Shown piece by piece: positions 30,631-38,290 of a stretch of DNA of 61,676 nucleotides; within the stretch, counting starts at the first letter, position 1; every line of letters begins with the position of its first letter. Below the pieces are notes generated by a model. The model was not told the origin of the DNA, searched no databases, and saw only the letters and a program-made list of their open reading frames with translations. The position numbers were made by a program, and so were the translations under genes. The stretch is taken from assembly GCF_002283365.1 (NCBI RefSeq), contig NZ_MQWD01000001.1, positions 3,360,255-3,421,930 of the forward strand. Reading direction: 5' to 3'. The stretch comes from Rubrivirga marina. Lineage in GTDB: Bacteria > Bacteroidota > Rhodothermia > Rhodothermales > Rubricoccaceae.

Positions 30631-30998
30631 GCAGCGTACAGACCGTAGGGCGCTATCCGGATGCGGGTGGACACGACAGCCGCCGAGTCGCCATCGATGC
30701 GGAAATGGGCGTACCCGCGGTACGCTGGCTCGATGTAGCAACAGGCGACGAGCGTCCGCCCTCCACTCTCGACGGCGACAGCAGACTCGCCACGCGGCTC
30801 GACGGCGACCTCGGTCGTGCCCCCCGGCGGGATCGGCGGAAGCGCGTATCTCTCGCCGGTCACGGTCACGACGAGGTCTGATCGCTCGACAGGCCCGGCG
30901 TTTTCGACACGGACGAGCAGACCGGGCTCGCACCCGACGAGGATCAGCATCGCGCTGGCGGCGGTGGCTCGCCAGCACGACGCGATCGAATTACGCAC
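30519..30998 (-). CDS. Putative lipoprotein downstream of flotillin gene
   Basis: A 159-residue product starting at the GTG at 30998, with a leader and lipobox LVGC (MLILVGCEPG). Residues ~28-135 read like a small beta-sandwich (VRVENAGPVERSDLVVTVTG; GGTTEVAVEPRGESAVAVES; YAHFRIDGDSAAVVSTRIRI). The last ~25 residues lie antisense to the small membrane-protein gene and look less protein-like, so the true end may have shifted. The start overlaps the flotillin stop by 8 bp, which supports a three-gene operon NfeD-flotillin-lipoprotein. Function unknown. Confidence 0.5.
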   Translation of the reverse strand: MRNSIASCWRATAASAMLILVGCEPGLLVRVENAGPVERSDLVVTVTGERYALPPIPPGGTTEVAVEPRGESAVAVESGGRTLVACCYIEPAYRGYAHFRIDGDSAAVVSTRIRIAPYGLYAAYSTGTIRPSSATVMPSGGGLVGKSEMLVLPSQPFGT

Positions 30999-32523
30999 CC
31001 TCTTGGTCGCCGGGGGTCGGATCGACGAGCGAGGGAGGAGCGGCGCCGGAGGCCAGCGGGGTCGACCCGTCGCCCGAGGCGGACGTGGCCGGCGCCTGGC
31101 GGTCGGCCGTGAGACGCTGCGCGAGGGCAGCGAGGTCGACGCCCGCGATGCTCTTGACGAGCTCCGGCGTCGTCGCCATGAGCCCGGCGACCGTGTCGGT
31201 GATCCGGCGGACGCCCTGGCCCGAGCCCGTGTCCACAACGGTCAGGGAGCCGATCGACGCGAGCGGCTTGGCGACCTCTCGGGCCAGCTCCGGCATCATC
31301 TTGGCCAGGAGGTCGAGCACGGCGGCCTCGCCGAACTTCTCGAATGCCTCGGCCAGCTTCTCCTTGGCCTCGGCCTCGGCGAGCCCGCGCTGGCGGATCA
31401 CGTCGGCCTCGGCGAGACCCTCGGCGCGCGTCCCCTCCGCCCGGGCCTTGGCCTCGGCCTCGATCTCGAACTGCCGCGCCTCGGCCCGCCGCACCTGGCG
31501 GAGCTTGTCGGCCTCGGCGGCCTGCTCGACGGCGTAGCGGTCGGCGTCGGCCTTCTTCTTGACCTCCGAGTCGTACTGCTTCTCGCGGCGTTCGATCTCG
31601 AGCTTCTCGAGGTCCACCTCGCGCTGCTTCCGCACGAGCTCGACCTGCATCTGCTCTTCGACGACCGTCCGCTGGGACGTCGCCTCCTGGACGGAGTAGG
31701 CGAGGTCGGCTGCGGCCTTGGCCGTGTCCTGCTCCTGCTTGAACGCGGCGACCTTCAGCTCCTTCTCCTTGGTCGCCTCGGCCACGTTGGTGTCCCGGAC
31801 GAGCTCGGCCTTCTGGCCCTCCTCGTCGGCGTTGGCCTTCTTGATGCGGCTGTCCCGGAGCGCCTCCGCCTCGGCGATGTCGGCGTCGCGCTTGATCGCG
31901 GCGATGCGCGGCCGGCCGAGCGCCTCGAGGTACCCGTTCTTGTCGCGGACGTCCTTGATCGTGAAGCTCACGATCTGGAGGCCCATCTTCTTGAGGTCGC
32001 GCGCGGCGACCGACTGGACCTCCTGGGCGAACTTGTCTCGGTTCCGATAGACCTCCTCGACGGTGAGCGTGCCGAGGATGGCGCGGAGGTGACCCTCCAA
32101 CACCTCACGCGCTTCCGCACGGAGCTCCTCGTCGGGCTTGCCGAGGAACTGCTCGGCCGCCGTCGCGACGTCTTCGACCGACGAGCCCACCTTGATGACG
32201 GCCACTCCGTCGGTCATGACGGGCACGCCCTCGGCCGTGTAGACCTCCGGCGTCATGACGTCGAGCTTGTGGGAGAGCAGCGAGAGCTGCTCTCGCTGCT
32301 GGACGATCGGAACGATGAACGCGCCGCCCCCTCGGACGATCTTGACCTTCCGGGCCGACTCGTCGGTAAGGACGTTCTTTCCCCCCAACGCGGCGCCCGT
32401 GATGATCATGGCCTCGTCGGGCGAGACCGTTTTGTAGCGGCTCGCGACGAGCACGACGATCACGACGATCGTCGCGATCAGCACGACGGCGACGAGTCCA
32501 GTGGTTCCGAGGAGCTCTAACAT
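30991..32523 (-). CDS. Flotillin-family SPFH scaffold protein
   Basis: A 510-residue membrane scaffold organising lipid microdomains. N-terminal membrane helix ~7-27 (LVAVVLIATIVVIVVLVAS), SPFH/Band-7 domain ~45-215 (SPDEAMIITGAALGGKNVLT; VVSF-like IVSFTIKDVRDKNGYLEALG), a long Ala/Glu/Lys coiled coil ~215-405 with repeated AEA motifs, and a C-terminal region that ends in a Ser/Pro tail. This is the YuaG/FloT plan and length. The upstream NfeD gene is its usual partner (YuaF), 26 bp away, and a lipoprotein gene follows with an 8-bp overlap. Confidence 0.92.
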   Translation of the reverse strand: MLELLGTTGLVAVVLIATIVVIVVLVASRYKTVSPDEAMIITGAALGGKNVLTDESARKVKIVRGGGAFIVPIVQQREQLSLLSHKLDVMTPEVYTAEGVPVMTDGVAVIKVGSSVEDVATAAEQFLGKPDEELRAEAREVLEGHLRAILGTLTVEEVYRNRDKFAQEVQSVAARDLKKMGLQIVSFTIKDVRDKNGYLEALGRPRIAAIKRDADIAEAEALRDSRIKKANADEEGQKAELVRDTNVAEATKEKELKVAAFKQEQDTAKAAADLAYSVQEATSQRTVVEEQMQVELVRKQREVDLEKLEIERREKQYDSEVKKKADADRYAVEQAAEADKLRQVRRAEARQFEIEAEAKARAEGTRAEGLAEADVIRQRGLAEAEAKEKLAEAFEKFGEAAVLDLLAKMMPELAREVAKPLASIGSLTVVDTGSGQGVRRITDTVAGLMATTPELVKSIAGVDLAALAQRLTADRQAPATSASGDGSTPLASGAAPPSLVDPTPGDQEGA

Positions 32524-32549: not shown

Positions 32550-33143
32550 CTAGGCGCGCGTCTGGAGCCGGGGCGGCAGGCCCACCTGCTCCGGCGACTC
32601 CGCGAAGTCGTCGGTGTCGAGCGGCGCGACGCGGAGGACGCCGTCGGCGTCGACTTCCACGACGACGACGCGCGTGCCCGTGGGGATGGCGTGGCCCGAG
32701 AAGGACGCCGCCGTCTGGAACGTGGTGCTGGCGCCCATGCGGACCACGACCTCGCCGAACCCGCCCTCTGGGACGCCGGTCGCCAGCTCGCCGGTCTTGC
32801 CGGCGTACTCGCGCACCGAGAACCCCGTCGAGTTCTCGCTCTGCTGCATCGGCTTGACGTAGACCACGTGGAGCACCACCGCCCCCACGACGCCGACGAG
32901 AACGGCGACCGCGACCTCAGGGGCCGTCGCCAGCCCGGCGTACGTATCGAGCAAGACGCCGGCCCCGCCGAAGAGCGTCACCCCGGCGACGGACGAGAGC
33001 GGGTCGAACGCGTCCCCGAGGTCGAGGGCCTCGAGCGCGCCGTCGAGCGCGTCCAGGGCCGCCTCCAACACCTCGCCCACCACGAGGAGCACGAGGGTAA
33101 CGGCGAAGCCGCCGATGAGGCAGAACCAGTAGAGGGGCGGCAT
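32550..33143 (-). CDS. NfeD/YuaF-like membrane protein with OB-fold domain
   Basis: A 197-residue inner-membrane partner of flotillin. Helices at ~4-26 (YWFCLIGGFAVTLVLLVVGE), ~52-67 and ~75-95 are followed by a cytoplasmic-side OB-fold ~110-180 (GKTGELATGVPEGGFGEVVV; GTRVVVVEVDADGVLRVAPL). YuaF works with YuaG in membrane fluidity and stress adaptation. The serine-protease half seen in long NfeD proteins is missing, as in short members. First gene of the flotillin operon; ATG start at 33143. Confidence 0.85.
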   Translation of the reverse strand: MPPLYWFCLIGGFAVTLVLLVVGEVLEAALDALDGALEALDLGDAFDPLSSVAGVTLFGGAGVLLDTYAGLATAPEVAVAVLVGVVGAVVLHVVYVKPMQQSENSTGFSVREYAGKTGELATGVPEGGFGEVVVRMGASTTFQTAASFSGHAIPTGTRVVVVEVDADGVLRVAPLDTDDFAESPEQVGLPPRLQTRA

Positions 33144-33719: not shown

Positions 33720-34061
33720 ATGGCCAAATCCACAAGCGCTCCGAAGTTTGACATGGACGTCGTAAACAAAAAGGAAGCGGCGAACATCCTCAAGACGTCC
33801 CGCCAGCGTGGGTCCCGTACGTCCAAGTACACGCCGGTCTACGAGAGCATCTCCGACCTGAAGAGCGGCGACTTCCTCGTCCTTCGCTCACTCGAGAAGA
33901 GCTCGAAGCTGGGCATCTACCAGGGCGTCAAGCGGAACTTCGGCGACGACATCAAGATGGCGTCGGCCCGGGATCAGGACGCCGACGGAGAGCACTACAC
34001 CGTCGTGATCGGGAAGGCGACCGATCATGACGAGATGCGCGAGATGGCGAAGCGCGGCTGA
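33720..34061 (+). CDS. Conserved-looking basic protein, unknown function
   Basis: A 113-residue soluble protein, ATG start, rich in Lys/Arg/Asp. The N-terminal ~45 residues (DMDVVNKKEAANILKTSRQR, then GSRTSKYTPVYESI) look partly disordered; the middle has a compact beta-rich segment (SGDFLVLRSLEKSSKLGIYQ). The C-terminus, EHYTVVIGKATDHDEMREMA, gives a strand and a helix. I recognise no family. Unlike its neighbours it has many Lys/Ser/Ile codons, in keeping with the AT-richer leader before it. It ends 4 bp from the convergent carbonic-anhydrase gene. Confidence 0.6.
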   Translation: MAKSTSAPKFDMDVVNKKEAANILKTSRQRGSRTSKYTPVYESISDLKSGDFLVLRSLEKSSKLGIYQGVKRNFGDDIKMASARDQDADGEHYTVVIGKATDHDEMREMAKRG

Positions 34062-34065
34062 GCGC

Positions 34066-34641
34066 CTAGGGCGCGCCCGGGTCTCCACCCCGACCCGGGT
34101 GCGTCTCGTAGAAGGGGTTCTCCGATGGCCGGTCGACGCCCCGATACATGCGGGCCATTCGGACGTAGTGTGCCGCGTTGGCCCGGTTCCGGCCCACCTC
34201 CGCCTCGGTCAGCCCGCGAACGACTCGGGCCGGTGATCCGAGAACGAGCGACCCGGGAGGAACCTCCGTGCCTCCGGTGACGAGGGCACCGGCACCGACG
34301 AGGGACCCGGCACCGATGACGGACCCATCGAGGAGGATCGCGCCCATCCCGATCAGGACGTCGTCCTCAACAGTGCAGCCGTGGACGACGGCGTTGTGGC
34401 CGATGGTCACGCCGGCGCCGACGTCGCACGGGTGCGTCCCCCGAGAGACGTGGACGGTCGCGTTGTCCTGGACGTTCGATCCGGAGCCGATCCGGATCCA
34501 GTGGACGTCGCCGCGGAGCGAGGCGCCGAACCAGACGCTGGCGCCGTCGCCGAGCGTCACGTCGCCGACGACGGCGGCGGTGTCGGAGATGTAGACGCCG
34601 TCACCGAGGCGGGGCGAACGGCCGAGGAAGGAGTCGGTCAT
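34066..34641 (-). CDS. Gamma-class carbonic anhydrase-like hexapeptide protein
   Basis: A 191-residue left-handed beta-helix protein of the YrdA/CaiE/gamma-carbonic-anhydrase group. Hexapeptide turns run from ~10 to 150 (VVGDVTLGDGASVWFGASLR; DDVLIGMGAILLDGSVIGAG). The metal-site histidines are in place: His64 (ATVHVS), His82 and His87 (GHNAVVHG). The family hydrates CO2 reversibly, but many YrdA-like members show little activity, so the catalysis is uncertain. ATG start at 34641; it faces the plus-strand PHA/EcsC cluster. Confidence 0.88.
   Translation of the reverse strand: MTDSFLGRSPRLGDGVYISDTAAVVGDVTLGDGASVWFGASLRGDVHWIRIGSGSNVQDNATVHVSRGTHPCDVGAGVTIGHNAVVHGCTVEDDVLIGMGAILLDGSVIGAGSLVGAGALVTGGTEVPPGSLVLGSPARVVRGLTEAEVGRNRANAAHYVRMARMYRGVDRPSENPFYETHPGRGGDPGAP
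34076..34099. terminator. Hairpin between convergent genes
   Basis: CCCGGGT and ACCCGGG form a 7-bp stem with a 10-base loop just past the stop of the plus-strand gene ending at 34061. It overlaps the 3' end of the carbonic-anhydrase coding region, so it can end the plus transcript. Confidence 0.45.
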
Positions 34642-34777: not shown

Positions 34778-35059
34778 ATGCCTGACATCGTCCTCTCACG
34801 CCCCCACGCCCTCGGACTCGACGCCGCTCGCCGCGCCGTGGACGAGGTGGCCGGCCGGCTCCGAGAGGAGTTCGGCGTGTCGACTCGCCGCGAGGGCGAA
34901 ACGGTCTTCGTCGAGGGGCGCGGCGTGACGGGTCATCTCGAGGCGGGCCCGCACGACCTCCGCGTCGTGGCCACGCTCGGTCTTCGAGCGCGACCGTTCA
35001 AGCGGCTGCTGAAGCGCGAGATCGAGGCCGAACTCGACCGCCTCGCCCCCCTCTCCTGA
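34778..35059 (+). CDS. Polyhydroxyalkanoic-acid-system family protein
   Basis: A 93-residue protein starting at the ATG at 34778. It matches the small PHA_gran_rgn family: an N-terminal helix (HALGLDAARRAVDEVAGRLR), a strand pair (GRGVTGHLEAGPHDLRVVAT) and a basic C-terminal helix (LGLRARPFKRLLKREIEAEL). The family is named for genes near polyhydroxyalkanoate granule loci, but no PHA synthase or phasin is present here, so the role is open. It is first of five plus-strand genes. Confidence 0.75.
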   Translation: MPDIVLSRPHALGLDAARRAVDEVAGRLREEFGVSTRREGETVFVEGRGVTGHLEAGPHDLRVVATLGLRARPFKRLLKREIEAELDRLAPLS

Positions 35060-35070
35060 CCCCTGCTCCC

Positions 35071-35775
35071 ATGTCTACCACCGTCCGCCGGTTCGTCCTC
35101 GACCGCCTGTACCCCTCCGTCCTCGACGGCGTGCCCGGGCTCGGAACGCCCGAGGCGCGCGCGGCCGACGCCCGACTCGGAGGGGGCTCCCTCGACGAGC
35201 AGGTCGACCGTCTCGTCCGCCGTCACGTCGCGCTGTCGGCCTCGGCCGGGTTCGTGAGCGGCCTCGGCGGGTGGCTGACATTGCCCGTCGTGCTCCCGGC
35301 CAACCTCGCCGCGGTCGCGTCGGTCCAGCTCCACATGGCCGCGTCGATCGCGGCCCTCGCCGGACACGACCCGCGTCTCCCAGCGACTCGGGAACGGGTT
35401 CTGTCCTGCCTCGTGGGGTCCGGCCCCGCGGATCCGGCCCGCGACCCCGAGCAGGAGACGATCGACCGCGTCGGCCTCAAGCTGGCCGAGCGTGGGCTCA
35501 ACCTCGTCGTCTCGAGCACCGTCGGGGCGGCGAAGTGGGGCGCGAAGAAGGTCGTCAGCGGCCAGGTCAAGCGGAAGTTCCTCCGCGGCATCCCGCTCGT
35601 CGGCGGCTTCATCGGCGCCGCGTCCGACGGCTACGTCACGCTGAAGGTGGCCGAGGCCGCCCGCGGCGAGTTCTTTGGCGGCATCGAGGAGCCCGACGCA
35701 CCCGGCTTCCCGCCGTCGTCCGGCGACGGCCTCCCCTCCGGCATCGTCCCTTCGCCCACCGGCGAGGAGGCGTAG
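35071..35775 (+). CDS. EcsC family protein
   Basis: A 234-residue protein with EcsC-type segments: VRRHVALSASAGFVSGLGGW (~50-69), LPANLAAVASVQLHMAASIA (~74-93), LVVSSTVGAAKWGAKKVVSG (~145-164) and FLRGIPLVGGFIGAASDGYV (~170-189). Two of these are long hydrophobic helices, so it is probably membrane associated. EcsC was first seen beside the EcsAB ABC transporter of Bacillus, but its biochemical role is unknown and no ABC genes are here. It starts 11 bp after the PHA-type gene, indicating an operon. Confidence 0.82.
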   Translation: MSTTVRRFVLDRLYPSVLDGVPGLGTPEARAADARLGGGSLDEQVDRLVRRHVALSASAGFVSGLGGWLTLPVVLPANLAAVASVQLHMAASIAALAGHDPRLPATRERVLSCLVGSGPADPARDPEQETIDRVGLKLAERGLNLVVSSTVGAAKWGAKKVVSGQVKRKFLRGIPLVGGFIGAASDGYVTLKVAEAARGEFFGGIEEPDAPGFPPSSGDGLPSGIVPSPTGEEA

Positions 35776-35809
35776 CCCCTCCCCTCTCTCTTAGCCACTC
35801 CCCTCTTCC

Positions 35810-36220
35810 ATGGACAACATCCCCAACGAGACTGAGGCCGCCGAGGTGGCCGCGACGGTCGACGACCTCGAGCGTGGGCTCGCACAGATCCCACTCTCCA
35901 AGGCCATCAACAAGATCGACGACTGGAAACGCAAGATCGAGCAGACCGAGCGGGAGGACCTTCGCCCCATCGCGGCGGGCCTCGGCGAACTCCACCAGTC
36001 GCTCGTCGGCGAGGCCATCAACGGCGCCCGAATCGGGGCCATCCTCGTCCGCCTCGGCGAGCAGACCGAGGCGGCCGAGGTGTCCGAGGCGACGACGGGG
36101 GACACGACGGAGGACCTCGAGCGGTCGCTGAAGCGGCTCGGCTCGCTCCTCCGCCACGCCGGCGGCGCCATCGGCGGCGCCACGGCCGACGCCACCACCG
36201 ACGAAACCGCAGAGGCATGA
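35810..36220 (+). CDS. Helical protein A of a paralogous pair, unknown
   Basis: A 136-residue acidic, all-helical protein. The core (~28-88) reads PLSKAINKIDDWKRKIEQTE, DLRPIAAGLGELHQSLVGEA and GARIGAILVRLGEQTEAAEV, followed by an amphipathic C-terminal helix (LERSLKRLGSLLRHAGGAIG) and a Thr/Asp/Ala tail. The core aligns with the next gene's product, so the pair arose by duplication. Its TGA overlaps the next ATG (ATGA). No family recognised. Amphipathic helices beside EcsC and a PHA-region gene could suggest a phasin-like surface role, which is only a hypothesis. Confidence 0.6.
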   Translation: MDNIPNETEAAEVAATVDDLERGLAQIPLSKAINKIDDWKRKIEQTEREDLRPIAAGLGELHQSLVGEAINGARIGAILVRLGEQTEAAEVSEATTGDTTEDLERSLKRLGSLLRHAGGAIGGATADATTDETAEA

Positions 36221-36573
36221 GAGGCTCCACCCCCGACACCGGCCGCGTCACGCTGGAGCAGACCGAGGCGGCGCTCGACGGCCCGATCACGGCGCTCACG
36301 CCCTCCGCTGCGCTCGGCATCCTCGACCACTGGCGTACCGCCTGTCTCGACGAGGACCAGCTCGACCTGAGCGGCGTCGCCGCCGGCCTCGACGATCTCC
36401 GCGGGCTCCTCGCGGGCGACCGCCTCGACGGCCGCGCCATCGCCGACGCGATCGCGGGCCTCGCCGAGGCCACGCGGGAAGCCGCCGCTGCGGCCCCCGA
36501 CGAGCGCGTCCAGCCCCGCCTCGAGCGGATCGCGACGAACCTCGACCGGGCCGCGACCGCGCTCGGCGCCTAG
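36217..36573 (+). CDS. Helical protein B of a paralogous pair, unknown
   Basis: A 118-residue acidic helical protein, paralogue of the preceding one: ALTPSAALGILDHWRTACLD matches PLSKAINKIDDWKRKIEQTE; SGVAAGLDDLRGLLAGDRLD matches RPIAAGLGELHQSLVGEAIN; and the C-terminal helix PRLERIATNLDRAATALGA matches LERSLKRLGSLLRHAGGAI. The start is fixed by the ATGA overlap. It lacks the Thr/Asp tail of protein A. Function unknown; the coupling suggests equal expression, perhaps as a heteromer. Confidence 0.6.
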   Translation: MRGSTPDTGRVTLEQTEAALDGPITALTPSAALGILDHWRTACLDEDQLDLSGVAAGLDDLRGLLAGDRLDGRAIADAIAGLAEATREAAAAAPDERVQPRLERIATNLDRAATALGA

Positions 36574-36611
36574 CCGCCGTCCTTTCCTTCCCCATCTCTT
36601 TCCTTCCAGCT

Positions 36612-36815
36612 ATGGCCTCCGACGACACCCGCCCCGACCAGATCGAGGGCATCTCCACCGAGACCGGCGACACGCCCGGCGACCCCGAACTCCGCACGGT
36701 CAACGCGGCCCCCGACCTCTCGGACGACTCCCCTGACAGCGACGCCGAGGTGGCGGACGACGTCAACGACGTCCCGGGGGATGAGACGCCGGGCACCGCG
36801 CTCAACCCGCACTAG
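36612..36815 (+). CDS. Small acidic disordered protein, unknown
   Basis: A 67-residue protein, ATG start, with about one residue in three Asp or Glu and few hydrophobics (DLSDDSPDSDAEVADDVNDV). It is predicted disordered and soluble. It starts 38 bp after the second helical protein and precedes a strong bidirectional terminator, so it is the last gene of the cluster. No family recognised. Confidence 0.5.
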   Translation: MASDDTRPDQIEGISTETGDTPGDPELRTVNAAPDLSDDSPDSDAEVADDVNDVPGDETPGTALNPH

Positions 36816-36843
36816 ACAGGTCACCTGAACGCCTCTCGTCCAG

Positions 36844-36873
36844 AACGGCTGGCGGCCTCGGTCGCCGGCCGTT
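36844..36873. terminator. Strong hairpin between convergent genes
   Basis: AACGGCTGGCG pairs with CGCCGGCCGTT (one mismatch) over an 8-base loop, midway between the plus-strand acidic-protein stop (36815) and the minus-strand Gre-factor stop (36881). It can serve both directions. Confidence 0.7.
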
Positions 36874-36880
36874 CGTGCGT

Positions 36881-37381
36881 TTAGGCGCCGTAGCGGATGG
36901 AGACGACCGTGAGTGGGGTCTCGCCGGCCGGCGTCTTCAGCGTGACCGTGTCCCCCGCCTTCGCGCCCGTCAACGCTCGGGCATATGGGGACGTGAACGC
37001 GACCGCGTCCTCGGCCGTCCCAGCCTCGTCGACGCCGACGATCCGGACCGTCCGCTCCTCGCCGTCTGCGTCGCGGACGACCACGGTCGCCCCGAACCGG
37101 ATGTCGGACCGGCCGATCTTGGCGGGGTCCACCACTTGACTCCGTGCGATCCGCTCCACGAGTTGGCCGAGGAGGCCCGTCAGAAGTTCGCGCTCGCGGG
37201 ACGCGTCCGGGTCTTCCGCATCGATCTCGGCACGGCTGCGTTCGAGGGCGGCCTTCTCCGCCCGGAGCGCCGCCAGCCCTGCGGGCGTGACGTAGTTCGG
37301 GACGCCGGCCGGGAGCGGCGGGCGCGGAGGGATAACGATGGGGACCTCAGGGGCTCCTTCCTTGACAAAGGCTCGGCTCAA
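36881..37381 (-). CDS. GreA/GreB-family transcription elongation factor
   Basis: A 166-residue factor of the GreA/GreB type, which enters the RNA polymerase secondary channel and stimulates cleavage of backtracked RNA. The start is a TTG at 37381, supported by the GreB-like opening MSRAFVKEG; no ATG is suitably placed. N-terminal coiled coil ~28-80 (YVTPAGLAALRAEKAALERS; LLTGLLGQLVERIA) and C-terminal FKBP-like domain ~85-166 (FGATVVVRDADGEERTVRIV; SPYARALTGAKAGDTVTLKT). The tip acidic pair expected in Gre factors is not clear, so it might be a Gre-like regulator rather than a cleavage factor. Confidence 0.82.
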   Translation of the reverse strand: MSRAFVKEGAPEVPIVIPPRPPLPAGVPNYVTPAGLAALRAEKAALERSRAEIDAEDPDASRERELLTGLLGQLVERIARSQVVDPAKIGRSDIRFGATVVVRDADGEERTVRIVGVDEAGTAEDAVAFTSPYARALTGAKAGDTVTLKTPAGETPLTVVSIRYGA

Positions 37382-37456: not shown

Positions 37457-37735
37457 CTACATCTCGGGCTCGCCGGGCTCGTCGATGACCTCGCCGTCGC
37501 CGATGACGTCCTCCTGGTCGCCGACCGGAGCGCCGTCCTCGATGGCCTCGTCAACCTCTTCGGCAGCCTCGTCGTACTGCTCCTCGATGGCGTCGCCGGT
37601 GTCGTCCATACCGGCGTCCTCGTAGGCCTCGTCGATGGCCTCGCCCTGGTCCTCGATCGCGTCAGCCTCTTCGGACTGGCAACCAACGAGGGCGAGAGGG
37701 GCCGCGAGGGCGAGCGTAAGAATGAATGCGCGCAT
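37457..37735 (-). CDS. Small acidic lipoprotein
   Basis: A 92-residue lipoprotein: leader MRAFILTLALAAPLALVGC with lipidated Cys19, then a strongly acidic helical middle (DQGEAIDEAYEDAGMDDTGD; EEQYDEAAEEVDEAIEDGAP) and the terminal phrase GAPVGDQEDVIGDGEVIDEP. The same phrase and the same first six residues occur in the EF-hand lipoprotein upstream, so the two are diverged copies. It may bind cations through the carboxylates. Function unknown. It has its own T-run terminator. Confidence 0.7.
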   Translation of the reverse strand: MRAFILTLALAAPLALVGCQSEEADAIEDQGEAIDEAYEDAGMDDTGDAIEEQYDEAAEEVDEAIEDGAPVGDQEDVIGDGEVIDEPGEPEM

Positions 37736-37954: not shown

Positions 37955-38290
37955 TTACATCGTCGTGCTTTCGTAGGCGCCGTACTCGTCCTCGGTGAGG
38001 TAGCCGTCACCGTCGGTATCGTAGGTCCCGAAATCGGTGTCGCCGATGCCAGTGTCGTACTCGGCTTCCGAGAGCCGACCGTCGGCGTCGGTGTCGTAGG
38101 AGGTGAAGCCGTCGCCGAGAACGTCAGCGTCGGGCTCCCCGGGCTCGTCGATGATCTCGCCGTCGCCGATCACGTCTTCGCGGTCACCGACGGGGGCGCC
38201 CTCTTCGTAGGCCTCCTCCTGTGGGCTGTCGGCGCAGGCGGCGAGACCGAGTGGGAGGGAGAGAGCGAGAGCAAGAATGAATGCGCGCAT
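37955..38290 (-). CDS. EF-hand calcium-binding lipoprotein
   Basis: A 111-residue lipoprotein: leader with Cys19 (LPLGLAAC), the acidic phrase GAPVGDREDVIGDGEIIDEP at ~31-50, then two canonical EF-hand loops, DTDADGRLSEAE (66-77) and DTDGDGYLTEDE (91-102), each with Asp at 1, 3, 5 and Glu at 12. A pair of EF-hands usually folds together and binds two Ca2+. It would sit at the periplasmic or surface side of a membrane and may sense or buffer calcium in sea water. The upstream leader sequence (AATGAATGCGCGC) is shared with the paralogous gene. Confidence 0.85.
   Translation of the reverse strand: MRAFILALALSLPLGLAACADSPQEEAYEEGAPVGDREDVIGDGEIIDEPGEPDADVLGDGFTSYDTDADGRLSEAEYDTGIGDTDFGTYDTDGDGYLTEDEYGAYESTTM

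Follow-up and report, generated by a model that had tools for sequence, protein, structure and literature searches.

The window analysed here, a stretch of 61,676 nucleotides from Rubrivirga marina (contig NZ_MQWD01000001.1, positions 3,360,255 to 3,421,930), carries a lineage-specific operon in which a two-gene core, encoding a PHA_gran_rgn family protein and a short EcsC-like protein, is followed by one to three paralogues of a helical domain that we call the h domain (order h1-h2-h3). In the window this operon comprises five genes (Table 1). All five plus-strand open reading frames reported by the initial annotation are present and the five-gene unit is real, with intergenic distances of 11, 34, -4 (ATGA) and 38 bp from gene 1 to gene 5. 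Since pairwise ratios of nonsynonymous to synonymous substitution rates (dN/dS) range from 0.17 to 0.57 across the five genes, and from 0.21 to 0.36 for the tail encoded by gene 5, all five look protein-coding and constrained. A search of the five proteins against PHROGs gave no match under an E value of 0.03. The reading that we put forward for the whole unit, tentatively and with a probability of about 0.3, is that of a lipid or scaffold module acting at the membrane surface.

The gene order is conserved beyond close strains, a property that the initial annotation had proposed to look for: the cluster is found in two families of the order, f1, which includes the R. marina genome (G000), and f10. 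Thirty PHA_gran_rgn loci of the order were compared, namely that of the window and those of 29 of the other 34 genomes carrying the family, the remaining five yielding no locus. In 11 of the 30 (the window plus 10 of the 29), the PHA_gran_rgn gene is followed by an EcsC-like gene. Eight of these loci belong to f1 (G000, G001 and G003 to G008) and three to f10 (G017, G029 and G039). Genes encoding h domains follow the EcsC-like gene in seven of the 11 (G000, G001, G003, G004, G006, G007 and G029); in G005 and G008 the contig stops within the EcsC-like gene, and G017 and G039 continue with other genes. Hence, the five genes are not five independent components, as first proposed: the h genes are an optional addition to the PHA_gran_rgn-EcsC pair. 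In G017 and G039, the core pair precedes a large gene that by eye resembles a GAF-containing sensor kinase, with a response-regulator-like gene adjoining (L186:6761-8689 and L185). A contig end divides the unit of G002, in which h3 adjoins GreA-like and MutS genes.

In a phylogenetic tree, h1 of G029 (family f10) groups with the h1 proteins of f1 with a support of 96/96, and h2 is only weakly grouped (83/68) with the second copy of G029. The third G029 copy was considered as a candidate h3 and rejected, as it falls with h2 (89/81) and not with h3. From this tree, only h1 is securely shared with f10.

The initial annotation had also treated gene 5 as a component of its own, an acidic disordered peptide. 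It is instead the C-terminal tail of a third paralogue, h3, that has lost its domain. Its product matches the C-terminal tails of h-domain-bearing proteins from G003 (196 aa; E value 2.1e-23), G002 (177 aa, truncated where its contig begins; 9.1e-21) and G004 (167 aa; 2.4e-10). The domain is gone and the tail is kept both in the window and in G007. The intact h3 gene of G003 contains the repeat CGCCCCACCGAG near its start and CGCCCCGACGAG at the domain-tail junction (identical at 10 of 12 bases). The short h3 forms read as if the stretch between these direct repeats had been removed. Since long forms are present in sister species of both short-form genera, two separate domain losses are the simplest count, as judged without a species tree. 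Furthermore, a degenerate DNA pattern for the tail (TPGTALNPH end), written from the same tail sequences, occurs exactly once in five of ten genomes and its reversed control in none. In all five it closes the final gene of the array, which in G029, a genome of another family, is the third copy. A separate family of acidic peptides was rejected in view of the tail matches, the repeat at the break and the distribution of the tail motif. The h3 protein of G004 is devoid of the tail end, and neither h2 nor h3 was found in G001 and G006 by search with a 26-row profile of the h domain.

Genes 3 and 4 are true paralogues, as initially proposed, and share a helical domain roughly 110 residues long. 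When the R. marina genome was searched with gene 3 as a single sequence, this retrieved gene 4 (E value 2.4e-5) as well as two further copies (9.6e-8 and 3e-3), and phmmer on a small set of called genes related gene 3 to gene 4 at 1.1e-7. The gene 3 search gave matches in eight of the 80 genomes examined, including that of R. marina. Two profiles of the domain were built, one of 26 rows, with sequences from the matched genomes, and a wider one of 34 rows. In the 34-row alignment, W39 and L61 (gene 3 numbering) are invariant, and T16, L58, L82 and L114 nearly so. When 22 distant members were shuffled (440 versions) or reversed (22 versions), none matched the 26-row profile, and therefore the matches are not an effect of composition; the 22 real members all match by construction, having been found with that profile. 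Among the 52 called genes of the window, it matches only genes 3 and 4, both of which are profile members.

No Pfam or NCBIfam family exceeds its cut-off for genes 3 to 5, and the two paralogues did not turn out to belong to a known family. Among the matches listed for the 34 h members, no Pfam model matches more than two of them (25 of 50 families listed) and no NCBIfam model more than three (25 of 37), the model matching three being a short lipoprotein-type one. Sequence comparison hence indicates that the h domain is a helical family that Pfam and NCBIfam do not hold. A match of gene 4 to pentalenene synthase was rejected (E value 0.003, 16.7 bits for a cut-off of 675). The predicted structure of h1 is a five-helix bundle (mean predicted local distance difference test score, pLDDT, of 71.4; 8 sequences). 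Its fold comparisons were set aside, the best Foldseek E value being 0.27 and the VIA Z score of 8.6 to a designed helical barrel being at an uninformative level for helical bundles. Likewise, profile matches to designed bundles (best E value 2.8e-6, 8qae) and to apolipoprotein A-IV were read as shared helix composition.

The first gene of the core belongs to the PHA_gran_rgn family, passing the curated cut-offs of both PF09650 (E value 1.2e-19, 70.8 bits for a cut-off of 26.6) and TIGR02610 (1.2e-12, 47.7 bits for 40.25). This family was named from its gene neighbourhood in other bacteria, among genes for polyhydroxyalkanoate (PHA) synthesis and granules. Gene 1 differs from that setting in being partnered by an EcsC-like gene, in a genome without PhaC_N match. 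PHA_gran_rgn members are described as mostly uncharacterized (PMC4117528). An AlphaFold2 model of the gene 1 product, built from four sequences (mean pLDDT 87.7), predicts a beta-alpha-beta4-alpha, helix-grip-like alpha/beta fold. In VIA, this model aligns over its full length (93 of 93 residues) with Rv2186c, an SRPBCC-type protein (8jmy_A; Z 9.9, root-mean-square deviation (rmsd) 3.1), which Foldseek also retrieves (8jmy_B, E value 0.011). Rv2186c differs in sequence (about 9% identity) and gene 1 is smaller than the SRPBCC/Bet v1-type helix-grip proteins. The model also aligns with 3c6k_B (Z 10.0, rmsd 2.5, 87 residues) and with further helix-grip proteins, including the myristate-bound 3w9k (Z 7.8, rmsd 3.0, 92 residues), a Z that means little alone. 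The best Foldseek row is PA4090 (2jpi; E value 9.7e-4, TM-score 0.56), with spermine synthase also among the rows; PA4090 was rejected as a relative, as it gives no sequence match, and no paper naming it was found in the literature searched. Solved structures were also searched by sequence with the PHA_gran_rgn profile and with the products of genes 1 and 2, and nothing convincing was returned. The predicted gene 1 topology is a common one, from which function does not follow.

The second core gene passes the gathering score of the EcsC family (PF12787; E value 2e-11, 44.5 bits for a cut-off of 30.4). Its product is shorter and divergent, the alignment being limited to profile positions 83-233 of 240, whereas a second EcsC elsewhere in the genome matches positions 3-236. 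EcsC is present in 108 of the 114 genomes of the order, and two of the six cluster EcsC proteins scanned fall below the PF12787 cut-off. Gene 2 is the only one of the five whose product exceeds a 19-residue hydrophobic mean of 1.4, reaching 1.7 in a stretch around residues 57-98. In Bacillus subtilis, where older work on EcsC exists, this protein is a partner of the EcsA/EcsB ATP-binding cassette (ABC) transporter. The R. marina unit differs in that no ABC transporter was found among its genes and the ten flanking genes scanned, the remaining genome not having been searched for one. We found no functional study of PHA_gran_rgn or EcsC-like proteins in the literature searched, which did not extend to subscription papers.

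In the membrane-surface module that we tentatively propose, the hydrophobic central region of the EcsC-like protein would place it on or within the inner membrane, and the small helix-grip-like PHA_gran_rgn protein would hold a hydrophobic ligand or lipid for it. On the cytosolic side, the h1 and h2 proteins, and h3 where intact, may pack together as soluble adaptors, docking being the putative role of the conserved tail at the C-terminus (TPGTxx[LF][ND]P). Such a module would contribute to the upkeep of membrane or lipids near a flotillin locus, and not to PHA storage. In its favour are the adjacency of the core pair in 11 of the 30 loci with h genes behind it in seven, the sharing of h1 with f10, the helix-grip-like matches of the gene 1 model, the hydrophobic stretch of gene 2, the presence of flotillin nearby in five of the 11 loci, the placement of the tail motif and the constraint on all five genes. 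Location, ligand, complex formation and tail docking are what we infer here. We list this reading as the best because it is the sole one that accounts for the whole unit.

Several points weigh against it. First, 19 of the 29 other PHA_gran_rgn loci have no recognisable EcsC-like neighbour in a test based on a profile built from the EcsC proteins of the cluster itself and on flanks of up to 1.5 kb, which a more divergent or distant EcsC would escape. Six of the 11 core loci, some of them on short contigs, showed no flotillin in the fetched stretch. As for the proteins themselves, the C-terminal domain of phosphoglucomutase and the N-terminal domain of spermine synthase tie with Rv2186c in VIA Z, and helix-grip-like folds serve many roles unrelated to lipids. 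In addition, a membrane segment is only marginally indicated by the hydrophobic mean of gene 2, and the h1 model (mean pLDDT 71.4) gave no fold match that convinces. Lastly, the h domain was not found in the genomes of four of the 11 core loci (G005, G008, G017 and G039). As it also occurs in other Bacteroidota without PHA_gran_rgn, joint action of the h proteins and the core is not required.

Indeed, the h domain extends far beyond the cluster. With the 26-row profile it was found in 11 of the 114 genomes of the order and in seven of the 395 of a phylum sample, and with the 34-row profile in eight of these 395; both phylum runs scored about ten candidates per genome, so that copy numbers there are lower bounds. 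In two families of distant Bacteroidota it is frequent, being carried by 28 of 81 genomes in f48 (up to 10 copies each) and by 31 of 80 in f39 (2 to 7 copies each). Tandem runs also occur in distant Bacteroidota, with six copies at L091 (4178-6854; seven with the 34-row profile) and five at L094 (4306-6804). By eye, the genes neighbouring these two arrays appear different. L103:4594-5355 has two h domains in tandem within one protein. Moreover, the R. marina genome encodes two adjacent h-domain predicted lipoproteins at another locus (C1:4692353-4693395; L026:4354-5396), both beginning like a signal peptide and having LAAC or VSAC as a lipobox-like motif. Orthologue-like copies lie among neighbours that look similar by eye in G002 (two) and G001 (one). 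Three genomes of another genus of the order (g46; 56-62% complete) carry h copies, with a lipoprotein-like start in two (L086 and L087). A plasmid search with two h members gave no match, and a further contig search with h1 gave only three loci (251 stretches matched a pattern).

These data are consistent with h proteins forming a self-standing family with a role of its own, for instance as stress-protective or regulatory bundles of the cytosol and as envelope lipoproteins, whose place behind the core would reflect shared expression. Because the family thrives elsewhere without the core pair, we hold this possibility, itself tentative, to be about as likely as the membrane-surface module. Besides the copy numbers, the arrays and the lipoproteins at unrelated loci, it is favoured by the absence of PHA_gran_rgn from all 12 h-bearing genomes tested outside the cluster-bearing ones (three of them only 56-62% complete) and by the four genomes with the core pair in which no h domain was found. 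However, it leaves the conserved unit unexplained: in both families with the cluster, h genes stand directly behind the EcsC-like gene with their arrangement kept, h1 and h2 overlapping or lying almost end to end.

The initial annotation suggested, as a guess, a coat on a lipid inclusion or membrane. A protein that coats or organises granules of PHA or another lipid is what the family name of gene 1 (TIGR02610/PF09650) points to, as do two of the five helices of the h1 model, with hydrophobic moments of 0.63 and 0.68 (0.40-0.42 in the others), higher than the 95th percentile of window 18-mers (0.45). The products of genes 3 and 4 resemble phasins (PF05597, PF09361 and PF09602) in being small and helical, with some amphipathic helices. 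However, they differ from them in their tandem paralogy, their lipoprotein relatives and their lack of sequence match: no phasin model was matched by genes 3 and 4 at E values up to 10, and none is among the matches listed for the 34 h members (25 of 50 Pfam families). The h1 and h2 proteins are also acidic (net charges of -13 and -9), in a window whose proteins are generally so (median isoelectric point of 5.13), and the gene 1 model is alpha/beta, not a phasin-like bundle.

The initial statement that no PHA synthase is present holds genome-wide for PhaC_N at an E value of 0.001, wax-ester/triacylglycerol and class III synthases not having been searched; at the same threshold, the other f1 genomes and G029 have no match either. 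Over the 114 genomes of the order, PHA_gran_rgn is found in 35, PhaC_N in five and both in four, leaving 31 of the 35 without PhaC_N. This absence is strong but not complete, since the model scores only weakly in three of its five genomes (E values from 3e-7 to 1e-4) and may therefore miss some synthases. Neither the unit nor the ten flanking genes that were scanned include a PHA gene, and none was found among the PHA_gran_rgn neighbours scanned in two f13 loci (carboxypeptidase, DinB_2, DUF2459 and Uma2), and no paper joining Rubrivirga with polyhydroxy compounds was found in the literature searched. Given the absence of PhaC_N, the gene 1 fold and the lack of phasin match, a phasin-like PHA-granule coat is unlikely and was dropped as the leading reading, and we regard a role on lipid granules of any kind as very improbable.

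The genes flanking the unit include a hexapeptide-repeat gene, which we take to be gamma-carbonic-anhydrase-like; such a gene lies upstream of PHA_gran_rgn in nine of the 11 core loci (exceptions: G003 and G004). Beyond it lie a flotillin gene and an adjacent membrane protein gene, presumably NfeD-like. Flotillin, together with its membrane partner, is found inside the fetched stretch of five of the 11 core loci, the window included, across two families, and the unit might hence be an accessory of this neighbourhood for envelope stress or quality control. SPFH proteins are proposed to organise membrane microdomains (PMC2636767, PMC11222466), which would suit such a role. However, the flotillin genes are on the opposite strand with the carbonic-anhydrase-like gene in between, and G003, G004, G007 and G017 have the core without flotillin in the fetched stretch, so that we consider this explanation unlikely.

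On the other side, the hairpin that follows gene 5, initially presented as a strong shared terminator, is real (70-nt fold of -41.1 kcal/mol, z -5.15). It has no T-run and is absent from the terminator-scan output. Because it is located between convergent genes, it could serve either strand, and its function as a terminator is plausible and unproven. Other small genes were observed nearby. Positions 33720-34061 encode a protein of 113 residues without Pfam family, kept at the same position in G001. Downstream of the unit are two consecutive small acidic predicted lipoproteins, of which one (37457-37735) appears highly acidic and repetitive and the other (37955-38290) has an EF-hand match.

Table 1. 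Operon genes and flanking features, in window coordinates.
Feature	Position	Strand	Description
Flotillin/SPFH gene	30991..32523	-	PF01145 (E value 6e-29), PF15975 (1.7e-9)
Flotillin-adjacent membrane protein	32550..33143	-	no Pfam match
Hexapeptide-repeat gene, divergent flank	34066..34641	-	PF00132 (E value 8.2e-19)
Gene 1, PHA_gran_rgn family protein	34778..35059	+	93 aa; PF09650, TIGR02610; predicted beta-alpha-beta4-alpha (helix-grip-like) fold
Gene 2, short EcsC-like protein	35071..35775	+	234 aa; PF12787
Gene 3 (h1), uncatalogued helical-bundle domain protein	35810..36220	+	136 aa; no Pfam/NCBIfam family over cut-off
Gene 4 (h2), paralogue of gene 3	36217..36573	+	118 aa; start overlaps the end of gene 3 (ATGA)
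Gene 5, domain-less third paralogue (h3)	36612..36815	+	67 aa; acidic disordered C-terminal tail, ends TPGTALNPH
Hairpin, possible terminator	36843..36874	.	14-bp stem; between convergent gene 5 and GreA/GreB-like gene
GreA/GreB C-terminal domain gene, convergent	36881..37381	-	PF01272 (E value 3.2e-20); downstream boundary of the unit

A broader proposal, which is speculative and to our mind rather doubtful, is that the h domain would represent a new class of modular helical adaptors used by Bacteroidota at either face of the inner membrane, in the form of lipoproteins and of tandem arrays in the cytosol. Within the order studied here, the domain would have been recruited to a PHA_gran_rgn-EcsC membrane-lipid module, and domain-less tails arising from repeat-mediated deletion would persist as working docking peptides.

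This analysis delineates a family of helical domains outside Pfam and NCBIfam, which is present in multiple copies and has both cytosolic and lipoprotein members. It also indicates that, in this order, a family named for PHA granules occurs mostly in genomes without a PhaC_N match. Gene 5 provides a clear case of a small 'orphan' peptide gene born by domain loss from a paralogue, with a tail that is still constrained. This operon can also be viewed as a compact gene set for testing the roles of EcsC-like and PHA_gran_rgn proteins.

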